Shown here piece by piece: positions 2,562 to 28,803 of a stretch of 64,000 nt of DNA. The translations under genes and the position numbers were made by a program. Numbering within the stretch: the stretch's first letter is position 1; each line of letters opens with the position of its first letter. Under the pieces are notes generated by a model. That model had not been told where the DNA came from. It was given only the letters and a program-made list of their open reading frames with translations, and ran no database searches. This DNA comes from Capitulum mitella (taxonomy: Eukaryota > Arthropoda > Thecostraca > Pollicipedomorpha > Pollicipedidae), in the NCBI GenBank assembly GCA_030062745.1, contig CP099849.1, positions 8,085,767 to 8,149,766 of the forward strand, read 5' to 3'.

Positions 2562-2778
2562 TGGGTCCTCCGACGGAGGCGCCGCCCCCTGCCGGCGACA
2601 GCTACGACACGCCGTCCTTCTCGGGCCGCTCGCATCTGACCATGCGGCCACCCAAGGCCACCATCAAGTTCCACCTGGAGCTGGAGTTCAGCAGCCGCGC
2701 CGACGACGGCGTGCTGCTCTACAACCAGCAGTGGGCCAACGGCACCGGGGACTTCATCGCCATCGCGCTCGTGGACGG
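2562..2778 (+). CDS. Agrn: Agrin-like exon 3: N-terminal half of LamG1
   Basis: Starts after a CGACAG acceptor with a short Pro-rich linker, then the first strands of a laminin-G sandwich: PSFSGRSHLTM, a FHLELEFSSRADDGVLLYN strand pair, and GDFIAIALVDG. The end in phase 2 (GG|GTGGGT) joins exon 4 to give DGFVEFRYD, the classic LamG motif. LG domains of agrin and related proteins bind glycans, dystroglycan or receptors in the matrix. The last 8 exon bases and the donor are repeated 33 bases further on (see repeat at 2768). Confidence 0.85.
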
Positions 2779-2832
2779 GTGGGTGACACTGTCGGTGGCC
2801 CTGGTGGACGAGAGGGTGGCAGTGGTCGCAGG
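2768..2832 (+). repeat. 33-bp direct repeat across the exon 3 donor
   Basis: GTGGACG occurs at 2771 and 2804 inside two imperfect 33-bp copies (roughly 2768-2800 and 2801-2832). The first copy carries the real splice junction; the second has AGAGGG where the donor would be, so it has lost the GT. The similarity is moderate. Confidence 0.5.
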
Positions 2833-3039
2833 CAGTCTGGCGTCGCTCTTTGCATAACTGTTTGCATGACAAGCGGCTCTCGCTGAAGAAATTCGTTTTG
2901 GTTTTGAAAGGTTTTTCGGCTGTGCTTTGCGTGGCAAATGGGATAATACCGGTTATTTCTCCTATCGGCACGTGGATATTACTATTTGTTGTAGTCTGCC
3001 GTGTATGACTCTGCTTTCAAGTGGTTAACGTTACAACCT

Positions 3040-3850
3040 AGCTTAACTCGGCACCGCCTGGCGTGTTTTTGTACCCGCGACGGCCTGGGGTGTCAAAAAG
3101 GGCACCTCCTGTTACCTCAGGATCCAACTGTCGGATCTGAACCAGTCTACCACTTAATCGATAGCCCTGAGTCTTGCAGTTCAGGAAATACTATGTTAGC
3201 CCTGGTCTCGTGGCTGATGACGTCACAGCTCACGTAAAACGCATAACACAACGTCGGAAAAACTGACACCTGTTCGTACGTCACATTATCGGTAATATTG
3301 GTCTTAAAGCCATTAGCTGGGTATCAAACGGAAAGGTCATGACCTCCTGCATCAGAAACATACCAAAATGTTGAAAAACATCGGGTCAGGGTCAGGCTAG
3401 GTCAGGTAAAGTACTGGTCTAACCTTACATGCCAAAGATCGATACTTACTCGCAGCCGTTTTGGTCCATGTAACAAAAAGACGGAAGTAAAACCTTCTGA
3501 TGATCAGTTTTGCATCACCTACTTTTCATCTAGTCAAGGTCAGTCTAGGTCAGGTCAGATAAAGTTGTATTACTCCTCCTGCCAAAGAGCAATAATTAGT
3601 CGCTGGGATTCTTTAGTGCGTGAAAGTGCAGGACTGAAATGACATCTCGTGATAATCAGCTCTGCTCTGACTGCTTTTTATGAGGTAAGATGAAGCCAAG
3701 GTCAGGACAGATCATTTTTTTTCCTTCTCTGACAATGAACAATAATTGCTCTCTGCTTCCACTGAACTGATCATACACAGACAGTGTTGTATTTCATTTC
3801 GTTCTGACACCAAAAAATATGTAGGAACAAACATATCTCCATGATCTGAC
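3040..3850. repeat. Dispersed repeat family A, copy 1 (intron 3)
   Basis: Clearly related to 25,555-26,720. Shared blocks include CGGYACCGCCTGG, TCAAAAAGGG, CGATAGCCCTGAGTCTTGC, ATGTTAGCCCTGGTC, GACGTCACAG, and a run with overlapping AGGTCA half-sites (3537-3557). No protein-coding frame is evident, so this is a non-autonomous element or fragment. Its right end is cut by the homopolymer tract beginning at about 3857. Confidence 0.8.
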
Positions 3851-3997
3851 CAAAAAATTTTTTTTTTTTTAAAATTTTAAAAAATGGGGGGTGGACCCCG
3901 AAAAAAAGTTTTTTTTTTTTTTTTTTTAAGGTTTTAGATTTTTTTCAAAAAAAAAAAGGGGGGGGGGGGGGTTCTGCCCCCCCCGGGGGGGGGGGGG
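3851..3997. repeat. Homopolymer tract, possible assembly artefact
   Basis: Consecutive runs of T13 (3858-3870), T19 (3909-3927), A11 (3947-3957), G14 (3958-3971), C8 (3977-3984) and G13 (3985-3997) with little other sequence. Nothing else in the window looks like this. It could be the corroded end of the preceding repeat, but adjoining G and C runs of this size are suspicious as consensus or gap-filling errors. Confidence 0.7.
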
Positions 3998-4188
3998 TTT
4001 AGGCCCACCTTTCAGCTACCACGTTTGCTGTGGAAAACATCATTTCGAAACGACGGTTTGAACCGTTTTCTAAATGCAATGGATACTGTGTTTATCAACT
4101 TACCGACTTTTTTCTTACTTACATTTTCTCATTTTCTTACTTACGACAGCCTGATAATGTTTTTTATCAGCTGACCGACTTTTGACAG

Positions 4189-4296
4189 GTTCGTGGAGTT
4201 CCGTTACGACATCGGTAACGGCCCGGTGGTGATCCGTTCCCTGTCCACGCTGTCTCACGGAGAGTACCACAAGGTGGTGGCGCGGCGTTACCACGG
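4189..4296 (+). CDS. Agrn: Agrin-like exon 4: middle of LamG1
   Basis: Thirty-six codon equivalents, phase 2 to phase 2, between TTTTGACAG and GG|GTGAGT. It encodes FVEFRYDIGNGPVVIRS, the diagnostic LamG strand with the D-x-G-x-G-P turn, then LSHGEYHKVVARRYHG, equivalent to the usual 'G.WH.V...R' strand. It is fully open and colinear with exons 3 and 5. Confidence 0.88.
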
Positions 4297-4447
4297 GTGA
4301 GTCGAAATTCCCTGCCGGCCGTGATCATGGAAATCAGTCCAAAAGAATCCGCTCACTTATCTTTCCTTGCTGATTAATATGTGTGTCAAGGGCAAAGTTC
4401 GCCTCATTGTAAGCCAGCCGGATCACTAACACGTGTTCGGTTTTCAG

Positions 4448-4568
4448 TGACGGCCAGCTGATTGTTGACGACGGAGAGAGTATCCACGGGAGATCTGAAG
4501 GGAAATCTGCGGTCTCTGGACCTGCGAGAGCCTCTCTACGTGGGTTACGTTCCCAGCAAGTACAACAG
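4448..4568 (+). CDS. Agrn: Agrin-like exon 5: LamG1, with a one-base frame slip
   Basis: After the TTTTCAG acceptor the frame reads DGQLIVDDGESIHGRSEG. The continuing LamG motif (LRSLDLREPLYVGYVPSKYN) is then in the next frame. The slip is at the AAA of 4503-4505: with one A fewer the reading passes straight into NLRSLDL and meets exon 6 in phase. Exon length is 121, one more than the phases allow. Exon 10 has the same kind of surplus base, so sequencing or assembly error is likelier than a broken gene. A real null allele cannot be excluded. Confidence 0.78.
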
Positions 4569-4914
4569 GTCAGACTCGACGACTGGACCAGCGAAGGTGC
4601 ACTGGCATGTAGTACTTAAAAAGACAAAGAAAATGTGGTAGTTGCTGGGGTCATTATCTCCTCACTTTCTGCTGTTTTTTGGAACACTTTCATTGGGGCT
4701 TTGTGCTGTTAAGTATCAGACTACCTCGTCTACTTAAAGCAAGAAAATGCTTGTGCATGTTAATTCGCTGTGGACTTGGTATATTAAACCTTTGCAGCAT
4801 TTTTGATCCGAGACAAGCAATTGCTTATTCTTTAACGATGACGATGCTAATTTCTCTTAGCCACGTCCCTACGTCGTTCCTGAGTCCTGACTGCCGCCTG
4901 TCTCCGGCCGCCAG

Positions 4915-5150
4915 GGTGTACGAGAACGCGGGCACGGCGTTCGGCTTCGTGGGCTGCCTGCGGCGGCTGCGGCTGGACCAGCCCGTCTCCGCCGACCTGC
5001 GCTACCCCGGCTCGCGCGACATCGTCGACTCGGTGGGCGTGCGGCAGTGCGGCGCCGACCCGTGCGCCAGCCAGCCATGCCAGAACGCCGGCGTGTGCGT
5101 GCTGACCACCGGAGGGCGCCACCTGTGCCAGTGCACCGACTGGTACCGGG
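4915..5150 (+). CDS. Agrn: Agrin-like exon 6: end of LamG1 and EGF-like domain 2
   Basis: Acceptor GCCGCCAG after a good pyrimidine stretch; AG|G makes Arg, then VYENAGTAFGFVGCLRRLRL, the conserved LamG end with its first Cys. The partner Cys is in VRQC. EGF2 follows (DPCASQPCQNAGVC, LCQCTDWYRG). The donor CGGG|GTACGT (phase 1) joins exon 7 to complete WYRGDSC. An upstream AG at 4859-4860 is also in frame but would insert 18 residues into the LamG loop, so I chose 4915. The exon end and donor are repeated twice downstream. Confidence 0.85.
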
Positions 5151-5290
5151 GTACGTGCCCCCATTACTGCAGGCAGCCCCTGCCTCTTAAAGTGTACCGA
5201 CCGGTACCGGCGTATGTGCCCCCCCCCACATCAACACCACTGCAGGGAGCCCCCGTCTCTGCCAGGGTACTGACAAATACTGGGGTATGT
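5131..5290 (+). repeat. Three tandem copies of the exon 6 donor boundary
   Basis: The sequence around GACTGGTACCGGGGTACGTG recurs imperfectly at 5192 (GACCGGTACCGGCGTATGTG) and about 5266 (GACAAATACTGGGGTATGTG), at spacings of 61 and about 73 bases. All three keep a good 5' splice site: GTACGT at 5151, GTATGT at 5212 and 5285. Only the first is in phase with exon 7. Sequences between copies (CTGCAGG..GCCCC) also repeat. Confidence 0.75.
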
Positions 5291-5319
5291 GGTTAGCCCC
5301 ACCGTTGCAGGGTTCGTTT

Positions 5320-5567
5320 CCAGCTCTGCCGCACCTTGGAATCAAGTCGAAGTATTTCCTGGATCAGGAGACTCTGGGAGGAACTACAGAGTAAGAATAA
5401 TAAGAGCTAGGATCGAAAAAGTGAGACTATCCTCTTTTCATTCCGTTTACCCGTCACTGATGTGGTGAACCCCACTAAAAGGAGCTTTAGCAGGGTTCAC
5501 CACATGAGCAGAAGAAATACATCACTTCAGTGCCTGTGTCAACCCGGCAGATGGGGAAAAACATGCA
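5320..5567 (+). pseudogene. Partial tandem copy of intron 6 and the EGF3 exon
   Basis: Two blocks match the sequence leading into and including exon 7. Bases 5324-5435 match 5611-5715 (CTCTGCCGCACCTTG onward). Bases 5504-5567 match 5976-6040, the second half of EGF3 (ATACATCACTTCAGTGCCTG onward). The copy has no acceptor and no first half of the EGF; in their place is a perfect 13-bp inverted repeat (5460-5472 with 5493-5505). It cannot be spliced in as a complete EGF domain, so it is a pseudo-exon. Confidence 0.8.
5460..5505. repeat. Perfect 13-bp inverted repeat
   Basis: ATGTGGTGAACCC at 5460-5472 pairs perfectly with GGGTTCACCACAT at 5493-5505 around a 20-base loop. It sits exactly where the duplicated EGF3 exon lost its 5' half. 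Confidence 0.85.
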
Positions 5568-5908
5568 GCAGGCTCACTGCAGTGGTGCTGAATTGGGGGG
5601 CACCTTCTAGCTCTGCCGCACCTTGAAATCATGCCAAGGTATTACCTGGTTTAGGGGAATTCGGGAGGGGATGCAGGGTAAAATAATAGGAACCAGGATA
5701 AAAAAGCGAGACGATCGCCTTTTGATTCTTGAAATGTATTGAAATCCCATGAAATGCTTCTTGATGGTGAAGCCGTCATCTTGAAAAGATGACAGGTACA
5801 CCATCATCTTTTGATTTCGTGTAGCCGTCACCGAGGGTCAGGCAATGCAGTGAGGAGTTTCATGGCTGCATTTAGTATCCACACAGTTAATATTTTGCGT
5901 CTTTCCAG

Positions 5909-6046
5909 GCGACAGCTGCGAGGAGCCAGTAGACCCCTGCATCTCGGCTAGTCCCTGCGCCAGTGGCGCCACCTGCGTGAGCAGAGGAAATACATCACTT
6001 CAGTGCCTGTGTCCACCCGGCAAATGGGGAAAAACATGCAAAGAAG
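5909..6046 (+). CDS. Agrn: Agrin-like exon 7: EGF-like domain 3
   Basis: Phase 1-1 exon between GTCTTTCCAG and AAG|GTAATT. It starts with GDSCEEP, finishing EGF2, and then gives a full EGF: DPCISASPCASGATC, LQCLCPPGKWGKTC. Two EGFs in a row between LamG1 and LamG2 are the agrin arrangement. The acceptor and whole exon are intact here, unlike the partial copy at 5504-5567, so this is the functional exon. Confidence 0.87.
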
Positions 6047-6267
6047 GTAATTTGTCAGCAGCGCCTTTTTGGAGGCGACTGGGAGGAGGGGGGATTCAAT
6101 ATGATTCTGCGGACTTTGGCATGACGTTTAAAACAGACTGGGACAGGTTGCACATTACTTTATTCGATGGAGATTTTAGTCTTTTTGAACAGCACATTGT
6201 ATTGGATTGGTAACCTAACGCTGTGGAGTGTAATGTTCCCAAGGATCTCCTGTATACCATTCCTGAT

Positions 6268-6325
6268 GTCATTCATCATATGTCATCATATCATATGTCA
6301 TCATATGTCATCATATGATGTCATC
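6268..6325. repeat. ATCATATGTC short tandem repeat (intron 7)
   Basis: Irregular repeats of CATATGTCAT/TCATATG. The rest of intron 7 (6047-6611) shows nothing I can name. Confidence 0.7.
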
Positions 6326-6611
6326 GTGATCCATAGAATACCATTCCTGATGTCATTTACCATGTCAATGTTGCGTTGCTGTTTTCAGCCATTTTAGACC
6401 ATGCCGAAAATCTCTCCACATAACTGAGTTGTGCTCCAAAGTACGTAACTGCGGAATTCATGGACCCAAGCTGTATGGCTGTTTAACATCTCCACTCGTG
6501 ACCCGTATGGACAATCCTTTAACGAGTTTTTCGCAGATTTTCCTGCCTTTGTGCTGTGCATGATGACACAGAGTTGATTCGTGTTTTCACCGCAGCAATT
6601 CTTTGTTTCAG

Positions 6612-6858
6612 TTCGCACGGATCACATCAGCGACCCGTTTGTGCCGAGCTTCAGTGGCGCCAGCTATCTTCAGCTGAGGAAACTATCCGACGTCGGACGG
6701 TCGCTGGAACTGGAGATGTGGTTCTTGTCCCGCTCACCAGATGGCATCCTACTCTACTCTGGCCAGTTCGAAAGAGCCGGGGACTTTGTGGGACTCAGGC
6801 TAAAGGACGGCTGGCTGGAGTTCGGCTACGATCTGGGCTCTGGTCCTGTCATCATCAG
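6612..6858 (+). CDS. Agrn: Agrin-like exon 8: N-terminal part of LamG2
   Basis: From TTTGTTTCAG to ATCAG|GTGAGC (phase 2). After a linker (VRTDHISDPFVP) it encodes SFSGASYLQLRKL, LELEMWFLSRSPDGILLYSG, GDFVGLRLKDGWLEFGYDLG and SGPVII, an unmistakable LamG first half. The last codon is split and becomes Arg with exon 9. The exon's final 26 bases and its donor are repeated five more times directly downstream. Confidence 0.9.
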
Positions 6859-7099
6859 GTGAGCATGGCACAACAGTCTGGGCTCCGGTCCTGTCATCAT
6901 CAGGTGAGCATGGCACAACAGTCTGGGTTCCGGTCCTGTCATCCTCAGGTGAGCATGGTACAACAGTCCGGGCTCCGGTCCTGTCATCATCAGGTGAGCA
7001 TGGCACAACAGTCTGGGCTCCGGTCCTGTCATCATCAGGTGAGCATGGCACAACAGTCTGGGCTCCGGTCCCGTCATCATCAGGTGAGCATGGCACGAC
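6832..7099 (+). repeat. Six tandem 45-bp copies of the exon 8 / 5' splice-site junction
   Basis: GTGAGC donors stand at 6859, 6904, 6949, 6994, 7039 and 7084, exactly 45 bases apart. Each follows a near-identical copy of the exon end (GGTCCTGTCATCATCAG). The copies differ by only a few substitutions, so the array is young or homogenised. Read through from exon 8, the first intronic codon boundary gives TGA (G|TGAGC) in every copy. Use of donors 2-6 would therefore end the protein inside LamG2; only donor 1 gives the full product. Confidence 0.95.
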
Positions 7100-9257
7100 A
7101 GATGCCAGCCGCCATGGTCTGCATACATGGAACAGGCCAGACGCCAACTGGACGCAGTGATGGATGCTGGCGATGGTGGAAGACGTGGCCACGGGCGCGG
7201 CGACCGACCGACCAACCAACCAGATGTAGACCGGTTGTTTCTGTGCAGTTTCGACTTTGCCAGCCTGTTGCATCACATTATGATAAACATGGCTCAATAA
7301 ATTTGTTCTCGAATGTCGAAACATGCCATGCAGCTCCCTTACCGTTCATTCGGAAAAACATCCCATACCCGCATGGAGCTTACCGAATTTTCCGATCACG
7401 AATTTGTTGGCTTGATTCAGAGGCACAGTAGCATTTCAAAGATTTGCCGGCCGGAAATTTCCTTCGTCTACTTAAACATACGCTGAGAAAGTTAAGATTT
7501 ATATGAAGCGAGGTCGGTGTAGGCCCATGTCAGATGTCCTACTGTCTCAGTCACGATCACGGTTTTATTAGACAGTGACCAGTGAAATTACAAATAACAC
7601 ATATTTTCTTTGGATACCTAGTGGCCCTATTACTCCCGCATTTAGTGGTTTTTCACACCAACTATTATACAGATTCACGTGGCAGTTCTGTCACCATTGG
7701 ATGGATGCACATGAATATCTCTTTTACGTTCAAGTTGTGTAGGTTACTCTTTATGCTCCGGAAGCCCATTTCGCCCCTTTTTGTACGCTTCACGTACGAT
7801 CTTTGGGAATCCATGTACGAAATATATTGGGAGTAAGAACGTTTGCCTAAGCTGGCTGAGCCAGAGCCAGTTTGGGGAGATTTATTTACGTGTGACAACA
7901 TATGACCAATGTCGAAAACTGCTAAATTTGCTAGACCATGTCCCATGGATTGCTGCGTTCATACGAAATATATTGCTGCATCAATATAAAAACGGACCTA
8001 CATATCGTAAGCATGGGATATCGTTTTTTTAAGTTCATTTTTCTTTTGTCCTCTCGCGTATTGGTCGTAAAGAAGCGGAGAAATCAATATCGGTTCTTAA
8101 ACCGTCCACAAACCTTCCAGATGAGTCACTGGAAAAAATATCTGTGTTCCTATTCCAGGCGGTAGGCAGTGCAATGCAACGTTTAATAGCGTTTGCTTAT
8201 TGTGACGTGGTATTAATTATGATTCCCTCTACTTCGCCACGGAGACTTCAACGCACAAGGCCACTTGGTGCTGCGTGGTCCGCCCAGCAGTTTCCACTGG
8301 TTTGAACCACTGACGTGTTGTCATAAATCTCAGTCAAGTAAACACATTGGGCCGGCCCACCGGCTCTTTAACATGTGGCTACAAAAATGATTGTTTTTCT
8401 AGAACCTAAGGATGATACGTTTTGTGTTACCCAGGGACTGGAATTAGCTGTTTCGACCTGTACTCTAGTCTGTTGTTCAAACCTTTAGTTTTAGAACCTC
8501 GAAAACACCCATAATGTTCGCAGGCGGACAGGTAGCAGGATGGAAAACAGCTAAATTAATGACTCTCTTCAGGAGTTATGGTCTGTTGAAAGGTGTTTGT
8601 GACGAAGGCTGCTTTAAAGGAATGCTCCACTTTAACACATGTTTGAGCCGAGATAGCCAAATGATAGCCGGTTCGCTTGAAAACCAGTCTGTAATGCATG
8701 CTGTTTCAAAAGTCCAAAGTGCCAGCCTGAAATTTGCGCCGTTACGTTACCTTTGGAGACTCAGAGCGATCAGCCATGGCTTTTCCCGCGTGTCCTCTTC
8801 GGCCACGTCCTATTTACAGCTGCTGCCATAACGCCTCGCCGCAACAGAGAGCGGGCGCCGACCAACGAGCGTTGGAGTACATTGGCTAGTGCAGGCCCGT
8901 AGTGTCGCATTTCGGTGGAAGACTCCAAAATTAAGTATTTGATTACATAAAATTTTATAGGCTTTTGAACATTGCTTAAGAGAAATAAGCGAGATAAAGG
9001 TAATCAGGGGCATTTTTAGACAAATCACCTCTATTTATCATAGTCGATCAAGGTGGGACGTTCTCCTTAACAAGGGAAAAACAACCTATCAACCGTGAAG
9101 ACTGAGGTTGTGCTGTTTAAGGAACGAAAAATATCTCCCTTTTGCCAAACTGATGCTTCAACGTTTTATCTGGGATGGGATGAAGTCAGAAGAGTAGGAC
9201 ACGGCTAGAGACAGTCGAGAGGATCGGATATCGGTTGCCATTGGTTTCATCCGACAG

Positions 9258-9301
9258 CACAGTTTTTGCAACTGACGATTGCGTCAGCTGCAAAAACTGT
9301 G
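9258..9301. repeat. Hairpin, 20-bp arms, 4-base loop
   Basis: CACAGTTTTTGCAACTGACG (9258-9277) pairs with 9282-9301 at 19 of 20 positions, the exception being A/G at the CAACTG/CAGCTG position. The loop is ATTG. It lies in intron 8. It could be the remnant of a foldback element or form a stem in the intron RNA. Confidence 0.85.
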
Positions 9302-11929
9302 TGCTCTGCTCTGATGGTGTTTCTCTTATTGCTTAACTCTATCTGCAGACTTGAACTTGCGTTAAAGTGGCACAACAGACAGGAATACTCCAAAGGTTTA
9401 TCGTGAACCAATTCGCTTGATTTTTTGCTGGAAATCCATGGAGGGCATCTATTTGGAACCCACAGATATTGGCCAATCTATTTGACCGATTCCGACGAAT
9501 CAGGCCTCAAACGAAACCTTGCGATCTGAACGAAGTTGTCTTAAAGCGGGCAAGTAGTATATTTTTGGCCATAGTTCGAACACTGATATCTATCATGAAT
9601 CGGTCCTACGTTCTGCATTTAGATTTGGCGTAAACTAAAAACATTCAGTCAGGTATTATGCGCTGGCATCGCACGACGTTGGTAACATCGTACTGGTCTG
9701 CAATGTCCACGTGCTTGCCCATCGCCTACATAGAGGGGATGCACGATACTTTGCCAGGATGCGTAACTGTATGGTTTGTATATCATATTTGAGTTACCTA
9801 CCTGAAGTCCACTTGTATATCCTACATTTGATTATGTGAAGAAGAAAATTGTAATGGGGTTCAGCAAGAGGATGTCATACGTTGATTTTACTCAAGTGCT
9901 GCACAAAAGGTTGTTTGCCTCCAACAACTTTAAAGCCCCGCAAATGTAATGTGTAGCAAACGCAAACCGTAGTGCACGGTCCAACGAGAAAGTTTTCGTC
10001 AAAGTACAGTTTTACTGTATGATGGAACACCGCTTTCTGCCAAATGTCGTCCCAGTAGGTGCCAAGGCTAATGCGGGCACCACCGGGCCATGCAAATGAA
10101 CAGGATTCCACCCCCCTTGCGAAATTCGGCACTCCCTACAAACCACGTTCAGGAAATCTTACTTATGCTAAAATGTTTTATCTCTCCATGATGTCGTCTT
10201 CCAATACGAAAATATTCTTTAAGGTAGCTTTGCAAGTCGCGCAGGTTAAATGGTTTTTAGTGTGCAAGCAATGATACTTTACCAGCTTCTAAAGTTCTAC
10301 ACACTAACTTTCCTTAACATCGTTTCTGTTGTTTCTTAGGCAAGAGATTCCCGCAGTTACGGCACAGATCGATGTCATTTTTGTCTTATTTCAAGAAATA
10401 TATTCTCTCATTTCGGTAGAAAACCAATGAAAAGCATTACTTATTGAATGAGGTATCGAGCAAACTAAAATATCGACTAATTACTGCTTTGCATGTAATT
10501 CGTTGGCGACCTCTTGGATGAATGGTCTTATCATCTTTTTGTTTGTCTTGTTGTGACGAAATAAGCTCTAAGCAATCACAGACGATGAAAAACTAGGATG
10601 AAAAGTCTGACTTTGGTGCAGTGCAGCGTTTAAAGATGAGACGAGAAAAAGAAAGAGGCCCTCACACGACTTTTGGGTCATAGTCCTAGAGGTCTTTCTG
10701 AAAGGAAAGATTAAGGAAAGTCGTTCCTCACACCTGGTGAGGGCCGGCTCCGAAGAAGATTCAGTCCGCTCAGATATTGGTCAGATTTTGGTGTACATCA
10801 CCGATGACTAAAGAACTGATTACGTTTCTGAAACAACTGCGAAATGGCCCGAACTGACTCCCAGAAACGTTTCACGGAGCTTCTCGTGGGCTGTTTAAGA
10901 AGCTGGAAGTTCGGCGTAATATGCTAAAAGGATACGTAGGAAAAGTTACCAGAGCTCAGCGCGACAGCGCAAGCAGTTCGGCTTTTGCGTGGGAAAAAAA
11001 ACACAGGGGCAAAATCACCGCCTCCCGCTGGAAAACAGGATTTAACATCATCTTGGACATCTTGCAACCATCCAGTATGTGCCACGTTTATCAAGTGGAG
11101 AACCTTTCAAGACATCTGTGCCGTAGGCTGGTATCCTGATTATGTTATTATTGCAATCGGCGTGTTTAGACGGATCATGTCCACTGTATGCCCATATATG
11201 CTCGTACAGATAATTTAGACTTTGGTTCATGTGGTTCTCTTGCCTCTACTATTTGTTCCTGATAGTGCATTTTCGTTTTGCGTTCAGGGCCGTCATTTTA
11301 TTAGTCTTTTCCAGTTCTGTTTAGAGTACTACAAGCTTTTATATGACGTAGTGCCGTATTTGAAAATTCGCCGTAGTGTTGCTCGTAAGAAATACGATCA
11401 GCGCAAACTACGTTCGTGGGTGATTTGAATGACGCAACTTCCGTTGGAGTGGTTAACTGAATATTGCTAGGATGTCTCCTGTCCTGTACCAGTTTGTTTC
11501 TGCTCTTGTTTTGTTGGAAAGATTTTGTCATTTGGATGCCGTTAAGATCCATTCAGTATGTCAGATTCAGTAGTGTGAGTAATTTCTTTGCCTCAAGGAA
11601 AAATCGTTAACGAAAGTTTTCAGAGCAGTTTGTTTGGTAGTCTAACCCTGAAGAAACAGATGCGCTTCAATCAAGGCTGGTCATGGTCTGCGTTTGATGA
11701 GTCATACCGCGATTCCGGGAAATTAGTCTCACTCCGCTTATCCTTCTATGAAGCGTCAAGTTGAACCCGTGACCTTTCTGCACGCACCATTTACCCATCA
11801 TCTAACGACCGGGATCGTCGGAGCGCATTGCACGACTAAACACAGTACAATGTACAAAGCCACCCCTCCGCCTTCCGCAAATGAGCGCCTCGTTGCTGAC
11901 GCTCAGCCGTCGCGCTGTCTGCTGTCCGG

Positions 11930-12310
11930 CTGGCCGGCGGGCTGGCGGGCTGGAGGGCCGGGTGCGAGTGACGCCGGGCGGACGCCAGCCGGCGCGTGTC
12001 GGTGCCGTCGCTGCCGATGTTTTGCGCCGTCGACGGCGGGAGCCGGGCGTCGGCGGCGGCCGGCGAGCCGCGGCGTCGCGTCGCGGGCACGCCCCGCCGG
12101 CGCCGACGCCCGCCGGGCGCGCCGACGGGCCGCCACTCGGCCGGATTGTCGGTCCAGAAACGTCGGCGACGCCGCCGGTCGCCGCGGTTCGAGCCGACCG
12201 CCGGTCTCGGCGTGATTTGTCGCCGTGTTTGGGAGCGCCCCGACAAAAACCGACACCGATGTGTCTTGTTCTGTCCGGCGGATCCGGAAAAAGCCGCGCC
12301 AAACTGTCAG
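11930..12310. other. GC-rich block in intron 8
   Basis: About 380 bases of GCC/CGG-rich, CpG-rich sequence inside an AT-rich intron. It is open in several frames on both strands only because stop codons are rare in such composition. No domain or splice pair supports an exon. It could be a regulatory CpG block. Confidence 0.5.
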
Positions 12311-12849
12311 CGCAGGCAGCCGGCGCTCCCGTTTTGGCAGTCCGTTCAAAATCGGGGCATGTTACTGGTTTTAGCCATACAAAATGCGACTGCTTATTTT
12401 GTGCTGGGTTGATGCTGATTTGTTTGCGGCTCGGCTATAATGCTACTAGCGTATTCATCTGTCAGATTTCTTTTTGAGTAATTTGCTAATAAATGGTGTT
12501 GTAGCACGACAAAGGAAGCCTTCAACTGGGCAATTGTGTTGCCAAATACAGTCATCCTTTTGCTCTTTTGTCTGTGTGGAAGGGAATCAGTGGTCAAGCT
12601 TTGATGTTACTGGCAAGTGCAGACTAAAGAAGACGTCATATTCGTGGCCCTCGCGGAGATCAGTCGCAGTCATACGCAGAAAGTTATGCAATGCTGTTCA
12701 TGAGGAGGCCGATTTTTATCGACGCATTGATTGTTCTAAGATACGAGTGTGTTCTGTTGTCGTCATCAGTGGCAGTTCGTCTTTAGAAGCAACTGTGGAA
12801 GTGCCTCACGAAAAATGTCGGGGAATGTGAACTGAAATCATATGTTACC

Positions 12850-12930
12850 TGTGATATATGTGTAATATATATATGATATATATGATATATGATATATGTA
12901 TATATATATATATACATATGGCATCATATA
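12850..12930. repeat. TA/ATATG microsatellite
   Basis: Runs of ATATAT mixed with GATATATG repeats, about 80 bases. Confidence 0.9.
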
Positions 12931-13820: not shown

Positions 13821-13852
13821 AGTGATTACACCCATGCACGGGTGTAATCACT
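13821..13852. repeat. Perfect hairpin, 13-bp arms
   Basis: AGTGATTACACCC (13,821-13,833) and GGGTGTAATCACT (13,840-13,852) are exact reverse complements around ATGCAC. Confidence 0.9.
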
Positions 13853-14509: not shown

Positions 14510-14809
14510 TTACATGTCTAAGTCTTCCAAATCCTCGGTTTTCAAATCCTCCTCTTTTATGGCTTTTGCTTCAAAGTTTTGTTTCACCTGTTGAAATTGC
14601 CCTCCGAACTGTGGATTGTAGACCGGTTTCGCTGCCTCACCTCCAAGAGATAGTCTTGCTTTCAAATGTTCTGGTTCGCCTTCAGTTACCTTTCCAGAAG
14701 GACCCGCTGGGGCTCCAGTTATCTTTGAAGCACCACCGCCTCCACCTCCACCACCTGACGTTTTTTGCCCTTGATTTTTCTTAGATCCTAGACCCAGAAT
14801 TTTCTTCAT
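14510..14809 (-). CDS. Possible nested small gene, basic N terminus and acidic C terminus
   Basis: Ninety-nine codons from ATG (MKKILGLGSKK) to a stop, on the strand opposite the host gene and inside its intron 8. The protein begins with a Lys-rich segment, has a run of eight Gly (about residues 21-28) and a middle part (SLGGEAAKPVYNPQFGGQFQ). It ends in a highly acidic tail (KEEDLKTEDLEDLDM). Ordered composition, strong charge separation and lack of GC inflation argue for a real protein, but I do not recognise the family. An in-frame TAG lies upstream of the ATG. It may be an intronless gene, a retrocopy, or the last exon of a gene (a CTCCCAG acceptor lies about 40 bases upstream). No poly(A) signal was seen nearby. 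Confidence 0.5.
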   Translation of the reverse strand: MKKILGLGSKKNQGQKTSGGGGGGGGASKITGAPAGPSGKVTEGEPEHLKARLSLGGEAAKPVYNPQFGGQFQQVKQNFEAKAIKEEDLKTEDLEDLDM

Positions 14810-17800
14810 ATTTCGTGCTCGTCCTTTTCTTCGTCGCACTGCTCCGTCTGGGAGCAGCTAGTAAATTGCACGTTATTATTTAGTGGACAAGGCGTAAGTT
14901 ACGCAATACATTTCTCCTTGCCGTGAAAATATGGAAAATTTATCCCTGGAAAAAGCAACTCAAAGATTTAAAATGTCAAATGCGTTAACAAAGGATGTCG
15001 ACAAGTTGTGGTGCTGCATAAAATCGTGAATAAAATCACGGTTTATTTCACGTGCAAATGATCTGGATACACTGCTTGAGTCACAGCCTGCAACAGTTGG
15101 AGATGCAGTTACGCCTAATTTTTGTTTAAGCACCACATATGTTGTATGATGTAGTTGATCCTTGTTTTTTTTGGCCTTTTGTACCACTAAACAACTTGTG
15201 TAGGAGTCGTCCCAGGATGTCATATTTCAAAACATTAGAACGTGTGTGTAAGTGCCTGGCCACGCTGTCTGACCATCAACTGGATATTTGCTATTCCCTT
15301 TGACTCTCGGATAAAACTACATGGACTGGAAAGCTGCAGAAGATTGCCCCGATACAAGGCAGAACAGTAGACGTTGGGCTGGTCTGTCTTGTTTGAAATG
15401 GAAAACAAATAAAGAGAAGTTATTCTGCCACAACAGCAAATACTTGCATCGGTCACGCAGGCAATAACGAAGACATGTAATATTTATTCTTTGAAATGTG
15501 TGACACCGGAAGGCCGTGTCATTTTTGGTATTTTGTAAGGTCCTTGTGCATGTTTTGTGCATATGTGGTACTGATAAGCCAACCAATTCGGTAGTGAATA
15601 GCCTGATAGACATGCGTATCTGGGAATAAATACCTGAAAAAATTAAATGGAAGTGAAAAACACGAAACTAGGTTTTTGCTTTCGCGCGTCTCCTTTCCAG
15701 TAACCGCGTACATTACATGGTAAATTGTGCATGGTTCGGAGTGTGGCTGAATAAACGAATTGAAAGAGAACGGCGCGAGCGATCTTGTGTTGCGTCAGGC
15801 TTTGAAAAATTAGAAGTATATCTTATTTGTCAGTGCCAGGCACTTACCGACAGAAATTTTCCTTGGCCGGAAACCAAAGAACGATTCTGACTGCTGCACT
15901 TGGATTGTCGATTACCTGACAATTTAGTCCTAATGCCTCTCAGTCCACCTGTTACTGGGCATTTTAACCTCCGCTGGCAGTGTTACCACAATTTACGAAT
16001 CAAGATAGTCAAGGATAGTTCTCATACCTGCTTAAAAACTTGCTCCGGATTAATAGGGACCTACGAAGAGCTGCATTCTTAAACTAATGCTTAATACACT
16101 ATTGAGATCCAGTGCCAACATATAACGACACTATAGGCTCGCCGATCTGGTTTTCCGCCTCATCGTGCTATTCTCAGGTTAGCATTGTTATAACGTAGCC
16201 TGGTGTGATCTAGCCTTACCTAAATTAGTGATATCTAGCTTTCAGAACGCATGCACTGTCAGACCGCCAACCGAACCTGTCACCCTTCCTAGGAACTTGA
16301 TGATTTAATTGTTTGATTTATGCTGCGGAGGACATCTAAAAAACTGCAGTGTAATACAATTAGAACTTGGCATCATTCCAGAGCCATATGAATCAATGAT
16401 TCATCCGCGCAGACTACAAAGACATTTGAAACATTGACCTATACATTCATGGTCATCTTATAAAACTTTTTACGATATGCACGTCATTTTTGTTTTATTT
16501 TAACCACCGGTGCAGCCAAAGGAGGGTGCCCGGGGGGTCCGGCCCTCCCCGTAGGCTCACGTATTTTTGCGAAAACCGTTGCGTATCGTCTTCACCAGCG
16601 GCGGTTTTCGTATGATTTCAGGTCACACTGAATTCCGCCCTCCCCTTAAGAAAATCCTGGCTGCATCCCTGATTTTAATCTGTCATAGGGCTAACTGCTG
16701 TGATTCAGAATCGTGCAAATGAACACACGTTTTGTCTGTGTACATCAGTTAAAAAACATACTGTGCTACATGTTTGTTTGAAATTAATGGATCCTAAATC
16801 CTTTGGTGAGAGTGGAATTGTTTGCCAGATCACATCAGCACGAGCATTCACCTGGTCGGAATTTCATGCCAAAAGTACGATAAACGCTTAGGGGTTTCCG
16901 TCTAGTCCCTTTGCCAGTTGACTAGATGGCCAGTTATTAATTTTTCATTTTGAATGACGATAAACAGAACTAAAGGTGTTTTGCTCTCGAAACATGCGAC
17001 TAATTTGACAAAGGAATACATGAGTTAACTTTGCGATTAATGCATTATCAGAGGCTCTGGAATCAGAATATGGAGGAGAATTAGAATGTAGGCTGTGACT
17101 AACTCTTCCTCTGTGTACCATGGATGCTGACGGTTTCGCGCAAGGCTTTGTGTTCTTATGTCAAGAGCATGAAATATCTTTACTTACTTTACGGCGTCTA
17201 CCATGACAGAACTAACGACGGGCATTGTCTTCGCTTCTTCATCGTCCGCAGTCTTCGTATCAGACTTTTTCGCACATACTGCCACTATGACGATTAGGCA
17301 TATCACGCACCATACAAATGATGCAACTAATATGATGGGATACACATTAAACATCATTAGGCTGACTTGTAGTTTTTATGTTCTTCCGAATTCTTCTGCC
17401 GGTTTGATTGATTATTTGAGCCCGGTAAGACCAAACGCCATGCAGTCTTAGGCCTCACAAACAATGCGAGCATTCCTTCAGCACAAGAGAACTGAAGCGA
17501 ACGTTACCATTTTCCTCGCAGTCATTTTCCAAGATTTTTAGTAGGATTTTTTCCATCAACAGTACGGCTTTTGTGCTTCGGCTCCTCCTAAACGGAAATA
17601 GTGGAAATGGATGGTAATCGATGAAGGTGCTTAAGGCAAACATTTTCAGCTTCAGGCAATGTGCAACACGACTAAATCATGTGGTTAAGGCTTATTTGTA
17701 ATGAACTATTCAAATCCCTACTGAATATGCGGTCACAGTTTATACAGAACACTTATCACAGGTAACAGTTAACACATTTAAAACATTGAATAGTTAACAC

Positions 17801-21500: not shown

Positions 21501-23384
21501 CTGCTTGGGCGGAATTTGCCGCGGGGTCTTTGCCACCGAGGACTCTGCTCTGCTGCGGACTCTGCCGCCGTGGGCTCCGTCGCTGAGGAGTCGGACTCCG
21601 CGGCGGACTCTTCCGACCCACCGTCTGCTGCCGAGGACGGACTCTCCCCACCGAGGACTCTGGACCCCTAGCGCGGGCCCGCTGTATGGGCACTTTTGCC
21701 GGGTCAGGCCTTTGGGGACGGGGGTGGGGATGGGCCCTTGGCCTGCGGCGACAAGCGCGGTCACGCCCTGTTCCGTGTTGAGGCACGCCCTCTGATGGAC
21801 ACCGTCACGCAGTCGTGCTGGCCGCGGCCAAGGCTGACAACCTACGGACGAACCGGACGCTCAGGCTCGTGTCCGGCCTGGTCTACACGACGTACGGCAA
21901 GGTTGGACGTCGTGGGATATGTCTTAGATCTAGTGTCCGATGCAGTGTGTGCTTAAAATTTGGTGTGGAGAATTCTGGCAGGGAATCATGACCATGTTGT
22001 TCTGGTTTCATCTGCAGTATTCATTGAGGCGTTCTTGATGAAGTCTGTCATTGGTCTACCAAAGCGCCGATGGAGCATTCACTTTGATCTTTATTCCATT
22101 ATTTAAATACTGGCCCGCCATTCTTCCTGGTACTCGTTAAGACGTGTTTCTGACATTCACCTGGACGTGATTCGGGAATCCGCTTTGGTCCCACCGTTGG
22201 TGCTATTTCCAGTGATTGCCGCGCAGTGAACCCCAGTGCTCACTGCGACATCTTTTCGGTATTCGCCTCCATGTCCGGCTGGATGCCTGTCCGATTCGCG
22301 GTCAAATTTCCGTCCGGCGCCGGCTCGGAAGTTTCCTCCAGCGTCTGTCCGATGTCCGCTGTCCGGACAGCGAGTTCGGTCCGACGAATGAGAATCGATC
22401 TCGGCCCGGGCCCGGGGCCAGCGCTGCCGCCGCCGCCGGACGCCCGGTCATGGCCTCCAGACGACAGGCGGGGTCAGCGGGGTCAGACGGGTCAACTGCC
22501 CGGGGCAGACGACCGGGCTGGCCGCCCGCGGTGCGTGGCAGGACCTCCAGTGGTGATGCGGTCGTTATACAGGAAATGGACCCTCTAAATGCTGAGGCGG
22601 GTGATGAAACGCCCGCTCGGTGACCTGGATATGGTATGTTGTTTTTTTCCAGCCGAGTAACGGTTGTGAATGATGTGAAAGATGATACAAATGACGCCAA
22701 TGTTTTTAGCTTTGCGGTATAATCCTGTTGATGTGAGACAGAATGAGGTGCGGAACGAATGAAAGATTCCGACGATGCCTCCTGCTCCGTGCATGTACTG
22801 ATGTGTATTGCGATGGACAAGCGGACGCTGTTTGCGAGGGCAAGTAATTAGTGTGATGCGGTGATGCCGCACGAGGGTGTCGCACAGGCTCGCGAGTTAT
22901 GCCGTGTCGGGTCCTTGGGGCTGGCGTGTCAGAGTTCGTTTCGTGTTCCGTGTTTGGGACGTGCCGTGGAACGTGCCGGCAGTTCCGTGTGTGCATTCCG
23001 GCACATATCTCACTGTTGCTTCCGGCGGCTGGCATTTTTGCTACACGTGCGGAAGTTCCATTAGTGTCAGAATATCGAAGTCATAAGTTTCTTTCTAAAT
23101 AATCCCACTGTTGCTTTCTGGTAGATATCGTTTTTGTCAGACGTGCAGACGTTTTATATACGTCAAGATGTCTAGGTTGTGATAATCCGTTTAATTCCCA
23201 AATAGCACATATTCACCTTAGAAGGCATTTCATTCAGGAAACTTTTGCTTGCTTTCAGCAACATCTTTTACCAGCATAAGTTTCTGTTCTGCACTTGAGG
23301 CCAGTGATTCTTCTGACCGCACTGCCCACAGTGTTACAAACGGCTATCCTACCACGGTACATTACATTCTCTGCTCCGTTTCAG
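18571..23384. other. Intron 10
   Basis: No host exon was found. The stretch 19,083-19,791 is open in two minus-strand frames for over 170 codons each but shows no domain. GC-rich blocks lie at 21,380-21,780 and 22,260-22,560. The former contains degenerate GGACTCT repeats. Confidence 0.55.
21533..21667. repeat. Degenerate GAGGACTCTG repeats
   Basis: Variants of GAGGACTCTG/GCGGACTCT recur at least seven times in about 135 bases of GC-rich intron sequence, with irregular spacing. Confidence 0.65.
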
Positions 23385-23503
23385 GTACATTGGCGCCCCG
23401 TGCGGGGGCAGTCCGTGCAAGAACGGCGGCCGCTGCCTGCCAGCCCTGAACAGCTACACCTGCCAGTGCGGCGGCGCCTTCACTGGCCGACACTGCCACA
23501 AGA
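23385..23503 (+). CDS. Agrn: Agrin-like exon 11: EGF-like domain 4
   Basis: From CCGTTTCAG to CAAGA|GTGAGT (phase 2 to 1). It encodes RYIGAPCGGSPCKNGGRC, LPALNSYTCQCGGAFTGRHC, a complete EGF with the conserved aromatic and Gly before the last Cys. A single EGF between LamG2 and LamG3 is the agrin arrangement. A second GAGTGAGTC lies 49 bases after the real donor in weakly similar context. Confidence 0.9.
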
Positions 23504-23817
23504 GTGAGTCGAAACGTTTTTACCTCTCTGAGGCGGACTCTCTCCACCACGAGTGAGTCAACTGATGAATGGTCCCTTCAGCGAACGGGATCTCCCACAT
23601 CTTCGACGTCCGTGCAGCTAACACGTTAGTCTGTTATCACGTGCCAAATAACATTCTCGGTGACCGCCACATTTGTTAACAAGCACAAAGCAGATTTAAT
23701 GCCACCTCTTTTGCGAGGCATTAAAGTAATCCAGGTTTAAAGACGTCCCTGCACACACCACTCGTCAGCTGACGCTGCGCAATCCCTGACGCAGGGCTTC
23801 ACGGCGCCCTGTTGCAG

Positions 23818-23923
23818 GGAGCCGGAAGACGCGGAAGGACCGCGTGTCGGCACAGCAGCGTGACGACGCTGTTCACTTCAGCGGCCGGGCGTTCGTGCTG
23901 ATGCCGAATCTCGTCCGCAGGGC
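23818..23923 (+). CDS. Agrn: Agrin-like exon 12: basic linker and start of LamG3
   Basis: Acceptor CTGTTGCAG, donor GGGC|GTGAGT (phase 1 to 2). It encodes a strongly basic linker (RSRKTRKDR) followed by DDAVHFSGRAFVLMPNLVRR, the first LamG3 strand. Agrin has a corresponding AFDGRTF segment after its last EGF. The intron that follows falls about where vertebrate agrin has its alternatively spliced z site. The basic cluster could bind heparan sulfate or be a protease site; that is inference. Confidence 0.85.
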
Positions 23924-24360
23924 GTGAGTAGGGCCGGAACCGCCGCCAGCCCCGCGGCAGTTTTACCCCGCTCCTGTGAGGTGGGACGGGAGGTCGATGC
24001 AGCCGGTCTGGAACTGCGATTTGTAGCGGTTCCCCACGAATTGGCGAGAGCCCCGTGAGCTGCATGAGCTCTGTGGGCTCCGTGAGCTCAGTGGACTGTC
24101 GTGGGCTCCGTGAGGTGGCGTGAGCTCCATGGGCTGGCCCACGTATTTCGCGCTTGGATGCAATACTGCCTTGCAATGGCTCATCACTGTGTTACATTAG
24201 TCCTCGGCTGTCATTGGGACTGTGCCTCAGTTCTTCGCCCGCCTAGTGTGAACGTTTCACCAGTGTCCGGTCAGTGGTCTGAGCTCCATTCGTGGAATGC
24301 TGCACGGGATTCAGCTTCTGAACGGTGACGTCTTTTATCATGCTCCGATCATCTTGTTTT

Positions 24361-24466
24361 AAGATTCTTAGACGAATTTCAGTGTATGAAGGTAAATTCT
24401 CCAAGTCCACAGAACCTTGTTATGAGATTCGTAGACGAATGCCAGCGTACAAAGGTAAATTTCCCA
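24361..24466. repeat. Tandem duplication, 63-bp spacing
   Basis: AAGATTCTTAGACGAAT at 24,361 is matched by GAGATTCGTAGACGAAT at 24,424. Both are followed by related 25-base stretches ending GGTAAATTYYCC. Confidence 0.8.
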
Positions 24467-25554
24467 GCCTTAGCTATCTCAAAACGGTCTTATTGAGCTC
24501 CTATGCCTCTCATTACTGCACGTTTGGAACGGTGAACACCGCCTTCGCCGCATAACGATATTTTTATTATCGCTATGCCGATAGTGAAAATTTTGACGTA
24601 AATTATAATAAAATTAAACAATGGAGTTCTCAAGCAAGCAAATGTCACAATGAAAAGGACTACCAGGCAGACGTTTTGGGAGTTAAGTTGCCGCGACGAG
24701 CAACACGTCTCTCGGCTGCAGCGATAGACCGCACTGTGCACGTGTCTTCACGAACAAACTAAAACGACGCGGTGCAATTGTTGCCGCTCTCCCGGCATTG
24801 GCAAAGATGGCCGCCGCCTGCCGAGCCGTCTCCATTTCACGTCAATGAACAGCGTGTACCGCTTCGTCCGGCCGGTAACTTGACTGATTCAATTTGACCG
24901 GGGCCGAGTTGGCGCGTTTTAATGACGGGTGCTGGGGCCGGCGGCCGCCGGCCCGGCCCGGCCCGGCCCCGGTAATTGGGTTTGCCCGCGGCCCGGCTCC
25001 GTTCGGCGATGGCACGGCGAGACAGGCCGACTCTCCGTTGCCGCCGGTTTATGATAACGATCCCGGATAGCCAATTTGGCCGCCGCGACCGCTTGTCGGA
25101 AATTTTGGGTGATCGCCGCGGGCGTGATGAACGTTTCCGGGAGGCAGAGCGAACCGAAACGCGGTCGGCCATGAATGGAGGCGAGAGTTCGTGGCAGTGG
25201 GATTCCGCAGGTAGGGTCGCACTGAAAGTGGTTAGGCGCCCGATGCGACTGGCTTATGGTGCATAAAGAATCATTTTTAAGGAAAAAGGCTGAAAAACCG
25301 AATGCTGATTAAGTTCAGTTTTACAAACCGAAAAATCGTGCAGGAGCACTTGAAAATGAAAATGGTAAAGTTACGTTTCCGGTCTTAACAGATATTTTGG
25401 AACATGTGGGTTCAAGAGGCATCAATATGACGATTTCACCCACAAAGCTGCAAATTCCATAACAATTTTACGTGATACTGGGTCACAGCGCCAGCCACCT
25501 GGGCGATTTCCTGTTCTTTTTCTTAAGATTTCTGTGCATTTAAGGACCGGATTA

Positions 25555-26720
25555 GCCCGGTACCGCCTGGAGTGCTTTTGTACCCGAGACCGCCTGGGGG
25601 TATCAAAAAGGGAACCCCCTGCTCTCAGGGTCTGACCGTCGGATCCGAACATGTCTGCCACCAATCGATAGCCCTGAGTCTTGCGAGTCAGAAAATGCTA
25701 TGTTAGCCCTGGTCATGTGGCTAATGACGTCACAGGTCATGTAAACGCATAACACGACGTCGGAATAACTGGCATCGATTTGCACATCGTGTCATCAGCA
25801 ACAGTGGCCTCAGAGTCTTCAGCTTGAGTCTTCAGCTTTACGATCTTCTGTATCAGAAGCATGCCAAAATGTTAAGAAATGTCGCGTCAGCGTCAACGTA
25901 TGTCAAGGGAAATATTGGTCGTAGCTTACATACGAAGGATCGATACCTACTCGCTGCCGTTTAGATCCACATAAGAAAAAGGGCAGAAGTGAGACCTTCT
26001 CATGAGCAGTCTTCCATTAACTCACTTTTACCCGATCAAGGTCAGTCTAGGTCAGGTCAGATAAGGTGGCATTACTCTTCCTGCTAAAGAGCAATGATTA
26101 CTTGTCGGGATTTTTAACTCTGTCAAGCTCAGAACTGAAATGACATCTCGTGCTATTAGATCTGCTCTGTCTGCTCGTTATTTGGTTAAGGTCAAGCCAG
26201 GTCATGACGGATAGTCATTGTTTTTTTCCTGACTAAGAGCCATAACTGCCCTCTGCTGTTACTGGATGATCTTCGTTTGTTTTTTTTTCATTTGCTACTG
26301 AACGACATTCATTTATTTCAGTTGAATGTTGCATTTCGCCTCGTTTTGATATCTACGTATGACGTAAACTGACATGACCTCACGATGTATTTGGTGAATC
26401 TTGCCAAGAGATGCACATAGATTTGCTTGTTTGGCTTGAACGATGAAGGTCAGCGACAACCACTTTCATCACACACAACGCAAATAAGTCCAATTGTCGC
26501 CATGCATGTGACCTAGCATGACCTCTAATGTGGACGTGTGACGGTCGTGTATCCTTTTGGAGACCGTATCCAATGTAAATCCAAATAATTAATGCATGAT
26601 ATTCGCGAGTATTATCCTACAAACGAAGCATGTTCGCGCCACCGCCAGGAAAGGCGTAAACATGCATGCAAGAGTACACTTATGACATCATATCTCCATG
26701 ACCTGACCAGGCATGGAAAT
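25555..26720. repeat. Dispersed repeat family A, copy 2 (intron 12)
   Basis: Same order of blocks as 3040-3850, in the same orientation, with roughly 80% similarity by eye in the best parts. It contains GTCTAGGTCAGGTCAGATAA at about 26,044 and the final ATATCTCCATGACCTGACC block at about 26,687. It is longer than copy 1 because of extra sequence in the last third. No coding frame was seen. Confidence 0.8.
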
Positions 26721-28239
26721 GGTTTGATGTCAAAATATGTAAAATTGAGTGGAAAACAGGCACTCAAAATATGGTTGGGCTAGCTCTAATGGCTCAGAAG
26801 TAATTCACGAAAAACCGAGGGGGTACCGTATTCGACATCCCGAAGTGGTGCTGGGTCAATACCTTATTAGCAGTTCAAAAGAATACTATGGCAGGATATG
26901 AATTCACTGATCTGCCATCCGTACAAAAATAAATGGCTAGAAAACTGCTACTCCTAAAATCCATTTGTCGAAAATACCTACTGCCAGCTCAAGGCCGAAT
27001 ATTAAAAGAATATGAGAGTGCAATAGGATGATTGATGGTTCATCAACGTCGTCAACCTTGCCATGTGTGAAGTTTTTCCACGTAAATGCAAGGGCAAGAA
27101 GAACCTGCTTCGACTCTGGTGGCCTGCCTGAAATAATTAGTATTAGTGATAGTGATACAGTTTGTGTAGCTATCGCGATCTACGGTCGCCGGTAGACTTC
27201 CGTCACAATTGTGAAATGATCGACCAATCTGCTTCATATTTGCCTCTCGATAAAACGATTGGGGATTTTCTGACCTCCTTTAGTGAATGTGGTCAGTTTC
27301 ATGGGGACAAGTTAAAAGAGAACAGCGAAAAGTTGGCTTTCGCGGTACATTGTTGCATTGGTGTTTGCATATTATTTTTGCGTGCATATCGCCGTCATGA
27401 CCAACTCTTACGGTCCTAGAAAACAAGATCAAACTTATGCACCATCACCCTAGCTTACGGCATGGCCAAGGTCGCAAGGTTTTACGACTTCCGTAAGTGT
27501 TGGCTAACTTTGCTCCACTGACAATCTGGTCGAGAAACTGCGGGTCATTTTTCCTTTTAACCTCTTTCACAAACTTCTTCCGTTTTATGTGCAGCCGCTC
27601 TCTGAAGAGGCGGCGAATAGGGCGCTTTCACTTTCAGCGTCGCGAAATTGGGCAGCGTCGTCCTCCTAATTTACCTGGACTTCGGGACGTGTGAAGCGTT
27701 CATCCATCCAGTCAGGTGATCCTGCCGTTTATCTCCGGGCCCGATTTCCCAGGAGCGTCGCTGAGGGGCTTTAGCGCACGTTTTCGCATTAGCTGCAGTG
27801 CGTGGATCCGTGAGCTGCAGCCAATCTGAGCTTGCATGCTCAGTCCTGAGGCTCCTCAGCGCCCCTCGTGAGATTTGACCGGACGGAGTGTGTAAGCCGG
27901 CTGAAAGCCTGCTCAAGTGTTGGCTGTTGTCGACGCTCTCGCTTTGAGAAGTGTTTAGTCTACTCTGCGACAGAGAGCTGCTACCTCGGAGCGGAGCTGT
28001 TCACGCAAAAGGCGGCCCGGTCCACGCCGCTGCTAATGACGAAACTGTTGTTGGGAAAGATTTGGGCTTAACAAGAATCGTGTGTCTAATTGCCCGTGGG
28101 GGGCATACATGATCCAAGCGCAAGTGCATCATTAACCGCGTGAAAGAATGTACTCCCATTGACTGGCCTCCTCTCTCCCATAAACTTCGATAACGAGCGT
28201 TCACGCCAATTTGACGCGCGTTGCAGCGATTCGACTGTT

Positions 28240-28460
28240 TTCCGCGCCGAATAATCTCGCTCGCATGCGAGCTTCCCCCGTTTGGCCGAGCCGGGCGATC
28301 GCTCTCCGGACCTGGCGGCGGGAGTTCCCGGGACACCCGGAGAGCTGGGGCCTCCGAACGCCGCCGTCAATCAGCGGGGTCGGCCCACAACCGGTCCAGG
28401 CGGCGGCTCCGCGCCGTGGGGTTCACCGTTTGGCGACTGATGAGCGTGCACGGCCCGTTT
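28240..28460. other. GC-rich block just upstream of exon 13
   Basis: CpG-rich intron sequence immediately 5' of exon 13. It makes a long open frame running into the exon, but no splice or domain evidence extends the exon upstream of the CCGCCGCAG acceptor. Confidence 0.45.
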
Positions 28461-28513
28461 GCGCTGCGGTCGGTGGTCGCCGCTCGCCTGACGCTCCCCA
28501 TTCTCCGCCGCAG

Positions 28514-28706
28514 CCGAAAACGACAGAGGGCCAACAAGCTGAGCTTCCAGCTGCGGACCAGAGGCCGGGAGGGCCTGATCGCGTGGACGGCCCGTGGAGG
28601 AGGTGTCGACGGCCACTTCCTCGCCGTCGGGCTCGTCAACGGCACCGTGGAGCTGACCTTCAACCTGGCCAGGTCACGACGCGGCATGGTCTCCCTCAGA
28701 TCACAG
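28514..28706 (+). CDS. Agrn: Agrin-like exon 13: LamG3 middle
   Basis: From CCGCCGCAG (phase 2; GC|C gives Ala) to TCACAG|GTCAGT (phase 0). It encodes RKRQRANKLSFQLRTRGREG, LIAWTA, DGHFLAVGLVNGTVELTFNL and ARSRRGMVSLRSQ. The unusual, very basic variant of the DLGSGP turn is followed directly by HPVNDGLWHRV in exon 14. I chose this donor over a GTCACG at 28,672 because only this one keeps the phase. Its last 15 codons begin a 45-bp tandem array. Confidence 0.85.
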
Positions 28707-28803
28707 GTCAGTGTCAGGCCACGCCGCGGCACGAGCCCTGTGACGTCGCAGATCAGCGCCAGGTCACGGTACGACATGCTCGCTCTGAGACCTGAGACCA
28801 GCA
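28669..28803 (+). repeat. Three tandem 45-bp copies across the exon 13 donor
   Basis: CAGGTC/CAGGCC/CAGGTC recur at 28,670, 28,715 and 28,760, exactly 45 bases apart. The copies are more diverged than those after exon 8. Read in the exon frame all three are open: RSRRGMVSLRSQVSV, RPRRGTSPVTSQISA, RSRYDMLALRPETSM. Only copy 1 keeps a GT donor (GTCAGT); copies 2 and 3 have AT and AC in that place. Confidence 0.85.

Follow-up and report, generated by a model that had tools for sequence, protein, structure and literature searches.

Mirages are short tandem duplications whose unit lies across an exon/intron border. They have been described in lancelets (cephalochordates) as single-gene curiosities; in the accessible parts of the reports, the units measure 10–72 bp in Adh3 and 150–160 bp in a globin gene, and the repeats seem not to disturb regular mRNA splicing (PMC3087553, PMC3902484). 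A further trait of mirages is that their length can vary from allele to allele or from tissue to tissue. In human factor VII, intron 7 holds a variable number of 37-bp repeats, the first of which contains the 5' splice site and, according to the available portion of that paper, only the most upstream site is normally used (PMC6627357). Intron gain by tandem genomic duplication is the subject of a further report, accessible in part (PMC4974935). Here these systems are compared with tandem arrays at exon borders of an agrin-like gene, situated at the left end of a stretch of 64,000 nucleotides (the window; GC content 0.46–0.54) on contig 11 of a 16-contig genome of 477,042,490 bases, and with similar arrays elsewhere in that genome.

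The arrays are probably mirage-type repeats. As in mirages, the unit consists of an exon end together with its splice signal, here at exons 6 and 8 of the agrin-like gene and in most of the other arrays; both types of border are affected, here across the genome, none of the 14 acceptors of the agrin-like gene reaching even a score of 10 in the test described below; and many copies keep their AG/GT signals. Unit size is approximately 21–98 bp in the cases encountered. The difference is that many genes are involved, in what is probably a non-lancelet genome, known here from one assembly alone. The factor VII repeats share with exon 8, where GT is kept in six of six copies, an array of donor-bearing units that begins at the end of the exon and extends intronwards, and the reading frame of the agrin-like gene would be consistent with use of the most upstream site. 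In contrast, the factor VII case is that of one gene in one species, without acceptor arrays, and site use is known there. The available part of PMC4974935 likewise deals with tandem duplication within a gene, splice signals included, whereas here existing introns gain intronic copies and no new intron arises. The kind of repeat is thus already known and, if the organism is a non-chordate, the new part is the number of genes involved. No report of mirages outside lancelets, and no genome-wide count of them, was found among the matches listed from the open-access literature; in the accessible parts of PMC10015627 and PMC7960049, 'mirage' is the name of a transposon, an unrelated use.

Arrays in the agrin-like gene

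The agrin-like gene encodes EGF-like and laminin-G (LG) domains. Its 14 donors and 14 acceptors were assigned from reading frame and consensus, a few acceptors (exons 1 and 2) being uncertain; all exons and arrays described below are on the plus strand. When joined, exons 3 and 4 match Pfam Laminin_G_1 (E 6e-14) and have an agrin chain as their best match among solved structures (E 5e-37). Exons 8 and 9 joined also match Laminin_G_1 (E 4e-22) and exons 13 and 14 match Laminin_G_2 (E 3e-18), while exon 7 gives an EGF match barely past the Pfam cut-off (E 0.0002).

The array at exon 8 (6612–6858), an exon that encodes the first part of the second LG domain and whose frame runs on into exon 9, is real beyond doubt. 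Six 45-bp copies at 6832–7101, each with 27 bp of exon and 18 bp of intron, are recovered by Tandem Repeats Finder (period 45, 6.0 copies, 95% matches), which bears out the preliminary description of this array. Copies 2–6 are 91.1–97.8% identical to copy 1 (24–26 of 27 bases on the exon side), and all five later copies retain GT. At exon 6 (4861–5150), which was named by eye as the end of the first LG domain (LG1) plus an EGF-like stretch, the evidence for the three copies previously described is good, though weaker. The array occupies 5117–5310 with spacings of 61 and 73; measured from the donor (5150|5151), the lags are 61 and 134. Copy 2 includes a 33-bp match at 88%, the exon side matches at 24/34 and 23/34 in copies 2 and 3, and GT is intact in both.

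Exon 13 (28514–28706) encodes the first part of the third LG domain. Its donor, at 28706|28707 (CAG|GTCAGT), keeps the LG-domain frame, and three old 45-bp copies are present at 28666–28807 (score 24, lag 45). The copies at +45 and +90 match the exon side at 22/34 and 23/34 and both are without GT, so that the three-copy repeat stands while the claim that it still includes the donor does not. The two 33-bp copies proposed for exon 3 (2562–2778, the first part of LG1) amount to a marginal repeat at 2759–2824, in which 23/33 bases match (score 15) and copy 2 has no GT. The weak fifth case suggested after exon 11 (23480–23576) falls: 22/48 bases match, and its score of 10, which is attained by 7.5% of positions, is not above background.

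The scores at exons 3 and 13 come from a fixed border-spanning test, in which an ungapped match at a lag of 25–120, with up to 40 bases on either side, must span the border. Scores of at least 15 are reached by 4/14 donors of the gene (15, 25, 63 and 24), and under a looser test the acceptor of exon 4 also matches weakly (score 13). In the introns of the gene, 1.0% of 4,835 positions attain 15, or 0.74% if the first copy only is counted. At 0.9%, the binomial probability of 4/14 is 6e-6, a figure that is merely descriptive, because the gene was chosen for showing the pattern. The claims that the arrays start at exon borders beyond even scatter, and that they are of independent origin, as they differ in sequence, are supported for this gene.

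It had been suggested that selection might preserve additional copies for use as reserve donors, an explanation that is highly improbable. Retention of GT in the later copies of exons 8 and 6 is in its favour, as is the observation that 21 of 45 arrays (47%; one-sided p 0.04, uncorrected) have units divisible by three; these 45 are the arrays among the listed pairs of the donor words CAGGTGAG and AGGTGAGT (see below), and for the agrin-like gene the preliminary description had given three of four unit sizes. Against it, any later exon 8 donor reads R and then a stop at the first junction, and the later donors of exon 6 generate frameshifts, as would that of exon 11 if it were counted. The extensions at exons 3 and 13 are open and in frame, yet the copies there are without GT. 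Each later donor of the gene was read through and none is usable; for this gene, reserve donors were therefore rejected. Acceptors, moreover, are duplicated as well.

Alternatively, the copies could be connected with intron gain, as its raw material or its relics, with each AG|GT unit giving a new intron or exon. Many units do run GT...AG|GT, and a mirage-based model of intron gain has been published. However, the LG domains encoded by exons 8+9 and 13+14 continue from the first donor across the array-holding intron, so that no new intron is visible, and this origin is very unlikely. Assembly or read-stitching error is the least probable explanation of all. Tandem repeats are prone to collapse and expansion, and a frame slip in exon 5 and a suspicious homopolymer tract at 3842–3990 (both described below) could point the same way; the copies, though, bear their own substitutions and are of widely different ages, and arrays of like anatomy occur at many unlinked loci.

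Exon borders of other genes

Arrays of the donor word CAGGTGAG were compared with single sites by means of a codon score, trained on 29 kinase exons and applied to 120-bp flanks. The arrays were the 16 found among 100 listed places, all on contig 1, and the controls were 40 of 100 listed single sites, two of which (L101 and L102) are near-copies of each other. A coding-like flank precedes the first copy in 12/16 arrays and 12/40 single sites (Fisher one-sided p 0.0027). After the last copy, such a flank is present in none of 15 arrays (one of the 16 was not scorable) and in 5/40 single sites. The score is itself GC-rich and overlooks GC-poor exons, such as exons 7–10 of the agrin-like gene.

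In 11 of the 16 arrays, as at agrin exon 8, the unit includes 16–45 bp of the sequence that precedes the first donor, and in one of these (A10) the flank scores as non-coding. The unit takes up at most 14 bp from upstream in a further four, and in the remaining array, A3, no exon was recognised. Two of seven array-flanking peptides pass the Pfam cut-off, one with an F-box (E 4e-17) and the other with an ALMS motif (E 5e-8). Thirteen arrays have at least three outward copies; with distance from the exon, resemblance to its edge decreases in 10 of them, increases in two and is flat in one. A decrease is what the origin of new copies at the exon would predict. The view of the agrin-like gene as a special case is unsupported: the anatomy of its arrays recurs at exon edges of many other genes.

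Repeats at acceptors were sought in an independent set of exons, comprising those predicted in single-site loci and in 50 kinase loci (total of 138 matches), to which the acceptors of array loci were added. Nine donors of array loci were excluded because these loci had been chosen for donor arrays. All exon borders outside the agrin-like gene are predicted ones. Spanning repeats with a score of at least 18 are present at 5/50 acceptors (4/46 in kinase loci and 1/3 in array loci), and seven of the 50 reach 15. The four in kinase loci are at L068 (lag 44), L082 (lag 60), L083 (lag 98) and L084 (lag 62), and that in an array locus is at L072 (lag 68). In L082, identified by Pfam as a protein kinase, the sequence upstream of the true start of the exon repeats a branch-like TACTGAC, a pyrimidine tract, CAG and 30 exon bases. 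L082 and L084 appear to be GSK3 paralogues, and their hits may not be independent. In L072 (301–900), one coding-like exon has arrays at both ends, a 68-bp one across its acceptor and another across its donor.

Border duplication therefore hits both 5' and 3' borders in this genome, and is most visible in GC-rich contexts. A process acting on donors only, as originally envisaged, was rejected on finding these acceptor-spanning repeats.

Splice words and base composition

The arrays could instead be ordinary GC-rich minisatellites that meet exon ends by chance and are tolerated at borders while being purged inside exons, without any bias towards junctions. This is rather unlikely. Of 4,000 noncoding positions sampled in the vicinity of genes, approximately 4% lie in any copy of an array with a score of at least 18, as might be expected of common minisatellites, and approximately 0.8% in a first or last copy. 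Relative to 0.8%, repeats at 5/80 borders (the 50 acceptors plus the 30 donors of the independent set) are in excess (p 0.0005, or p 0.004 for 4/79 with the paralogues counted as one). We think this founder-copy comparison the fairer, though the sample is small, since the exon edge necessarily sits at one end of its array, as first or last copy.

Across the genome, words were counted as pairs, in which a word is followed by its own repeat at 30–60 bp, with the reversed word as control. The donor words were CAGGTGAG, AGGTGAGT and AGGTAAGT, the last an AT-rich strong donor, and the non-donor words were CAGGAGAG and CAGHTGAG. Pair counts are inflated by large arrays. For CAGGTGAG, 966 + 900 = 1866 pairs were found against 115 + 77 = 192 for its reverse; with 22,952 and 9,377 single sites, respectively, 8.1% and 2.0% are paired. 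For AGGTGAGT the figures are 298/10,198 (2.9%) and 79/11,277 (0.7%). Per-array counts were made by eye among the first 100 places listed for each word and may be incomplete, and the site numbers that go with them are estimated from the genome-wide counts. At least 16–17 CAGGTGAG arrays lie in the first 21.1 Mb of contig 1, for about 934 sites (1.7–1.8%), compared with at least 21 for CAGGAGAG (about 1,616 sites, 1.3%) and at least 45 for CAGHTGAG (about 4,859 sites, 0.9%), both on contig 1. The donor word CAGGTGAG is thus found in arrays more often than its reverse and CAGHTGAG, and not clearly more often than CAGGAGAG.

Several of these results weigh against a bias towards junctions. Per array, the excess of CAGGTGAG over the GC-matched CAGGAGAG is 1.3–1.4 fold and not significant (p 0.19–0.25), and that over CAGHTGAG just 1.8–2.0 fold (p 0.02–0.03). 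As pairs, CAGHTGAG reaches 1,468/52,391 (2.8%) against 252/23,005 (1.1%) for its reverse, and CAGGAGAG 672/17,609 (3.8%) against 702/14,269 (4.9%), so that three GC-rich non-donor words are paired at 2.8–4.9%; the AT-rich donor word AGGTAAGT is rarely paired, with a weak excess over its reverse, 28/9,343 (0.30%) against 37/21,008 (0.18%). For richness in arrays, composition counts as much as donor identity. Because coding flanks are GC-rich, the flank comparison leaves exon and composition partly mixed. The other five of the seven array-flanking peptides gave no Pfam match in four cases and a sub-threshold match in one, and the outward decay of the copies is partly built in, since every array fades towards its distal end. 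At the borders themselves, 5/80 is not significant against the any-copy background of about 4% (p 0.22), and none of the 30 donors of the independent set reaches 15, a result that also counts against a donor-specific process.

On the other side, chance overlap by minisatellites does not readily account for the excess over the founder-copy background, nor for the split of CAGGTGAG sites by flank, despite the GC-richness of coding sequence, and the remaining reversed words pair at just 0.2–2.0%. Between a mutational hot spot at junctions and chance overlap, the evidence leans towards junction bias. The suggestion of a local mutational process remains the better half of the preliminary guess at a cause, with base composition as a serious confounder.

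Possible origin of the arrays and minor features of the gene

If the arrays are mirage-type repeats, they could arise by slippage or unequal exchange, which would duplicate an exon edge together with its splice signal. The copy adjacent to the exon would remain under selection as the working site, while the extra copy would become intron and drift. Duplications that span a border may be tolerated in that they leave the exon intact beside one working splice site, and repeated rounds would then generate an array of decaying ghosts of the exon edge. We infer such a mechanism and a raised rate of duplication at junctions. Sole use of the exon-proximal site is likewise suggested, because the domain frames and the published cases agree. 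The arrays themselves are without supportable function. More broadly, exon edges at both ends could be hot spots that shed tandem copies into introns, which would grow outwards, many genic minisatellites being decayed exon edges; this wider view is speculative and rather unlikely to hold as a whole.

If mirage-type repeats are indeed what is seen here and the organism is a non-chordate, mirages extend beyond chordates and, were the hot-spot view also true, they would drive the growth of introns throughout a genome other than that of a lancelet. Exon edges duplicated at many genes would provide a natural experiment in spliceosomal choice between adjacent sites of almost the same sequence. They would also add to intron length, perhaps even supply new introns, and would call for caution in gene finders faced with several equal splice sites in series.

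A few other features of the agrin-like gene may be recorded. Long A/T and G/C homopolymer runs at 3842–3990 in intron 3 are perhaps a sequencing artefact. Exon 5 (4448–4568) has no single frame throughout; its LG-like peptide switches frame inside the exon, by a sequencing slip or real damage. Nested within intron 8 on the minus strand (14510–14857) is a glycine-rich open frame, a 99-amino-acid piece of which gave no Pfam match. A 19-bp array rich in GTGAGC (24042–24138) starts approximately 120 bp past the exon 12 donor and is possibly an older donor-derived array. Intron 6 contains a duplication of 5318–5381 at 5605–5668 (lag 287, 80% identity). It also holds a degenerate copy, seen by eye, of most of the EGF-like exon 7 (5500–5568 against 5980–6046), approximately 479 bp upstream of the real exon, which would represent a larger exon duplication.

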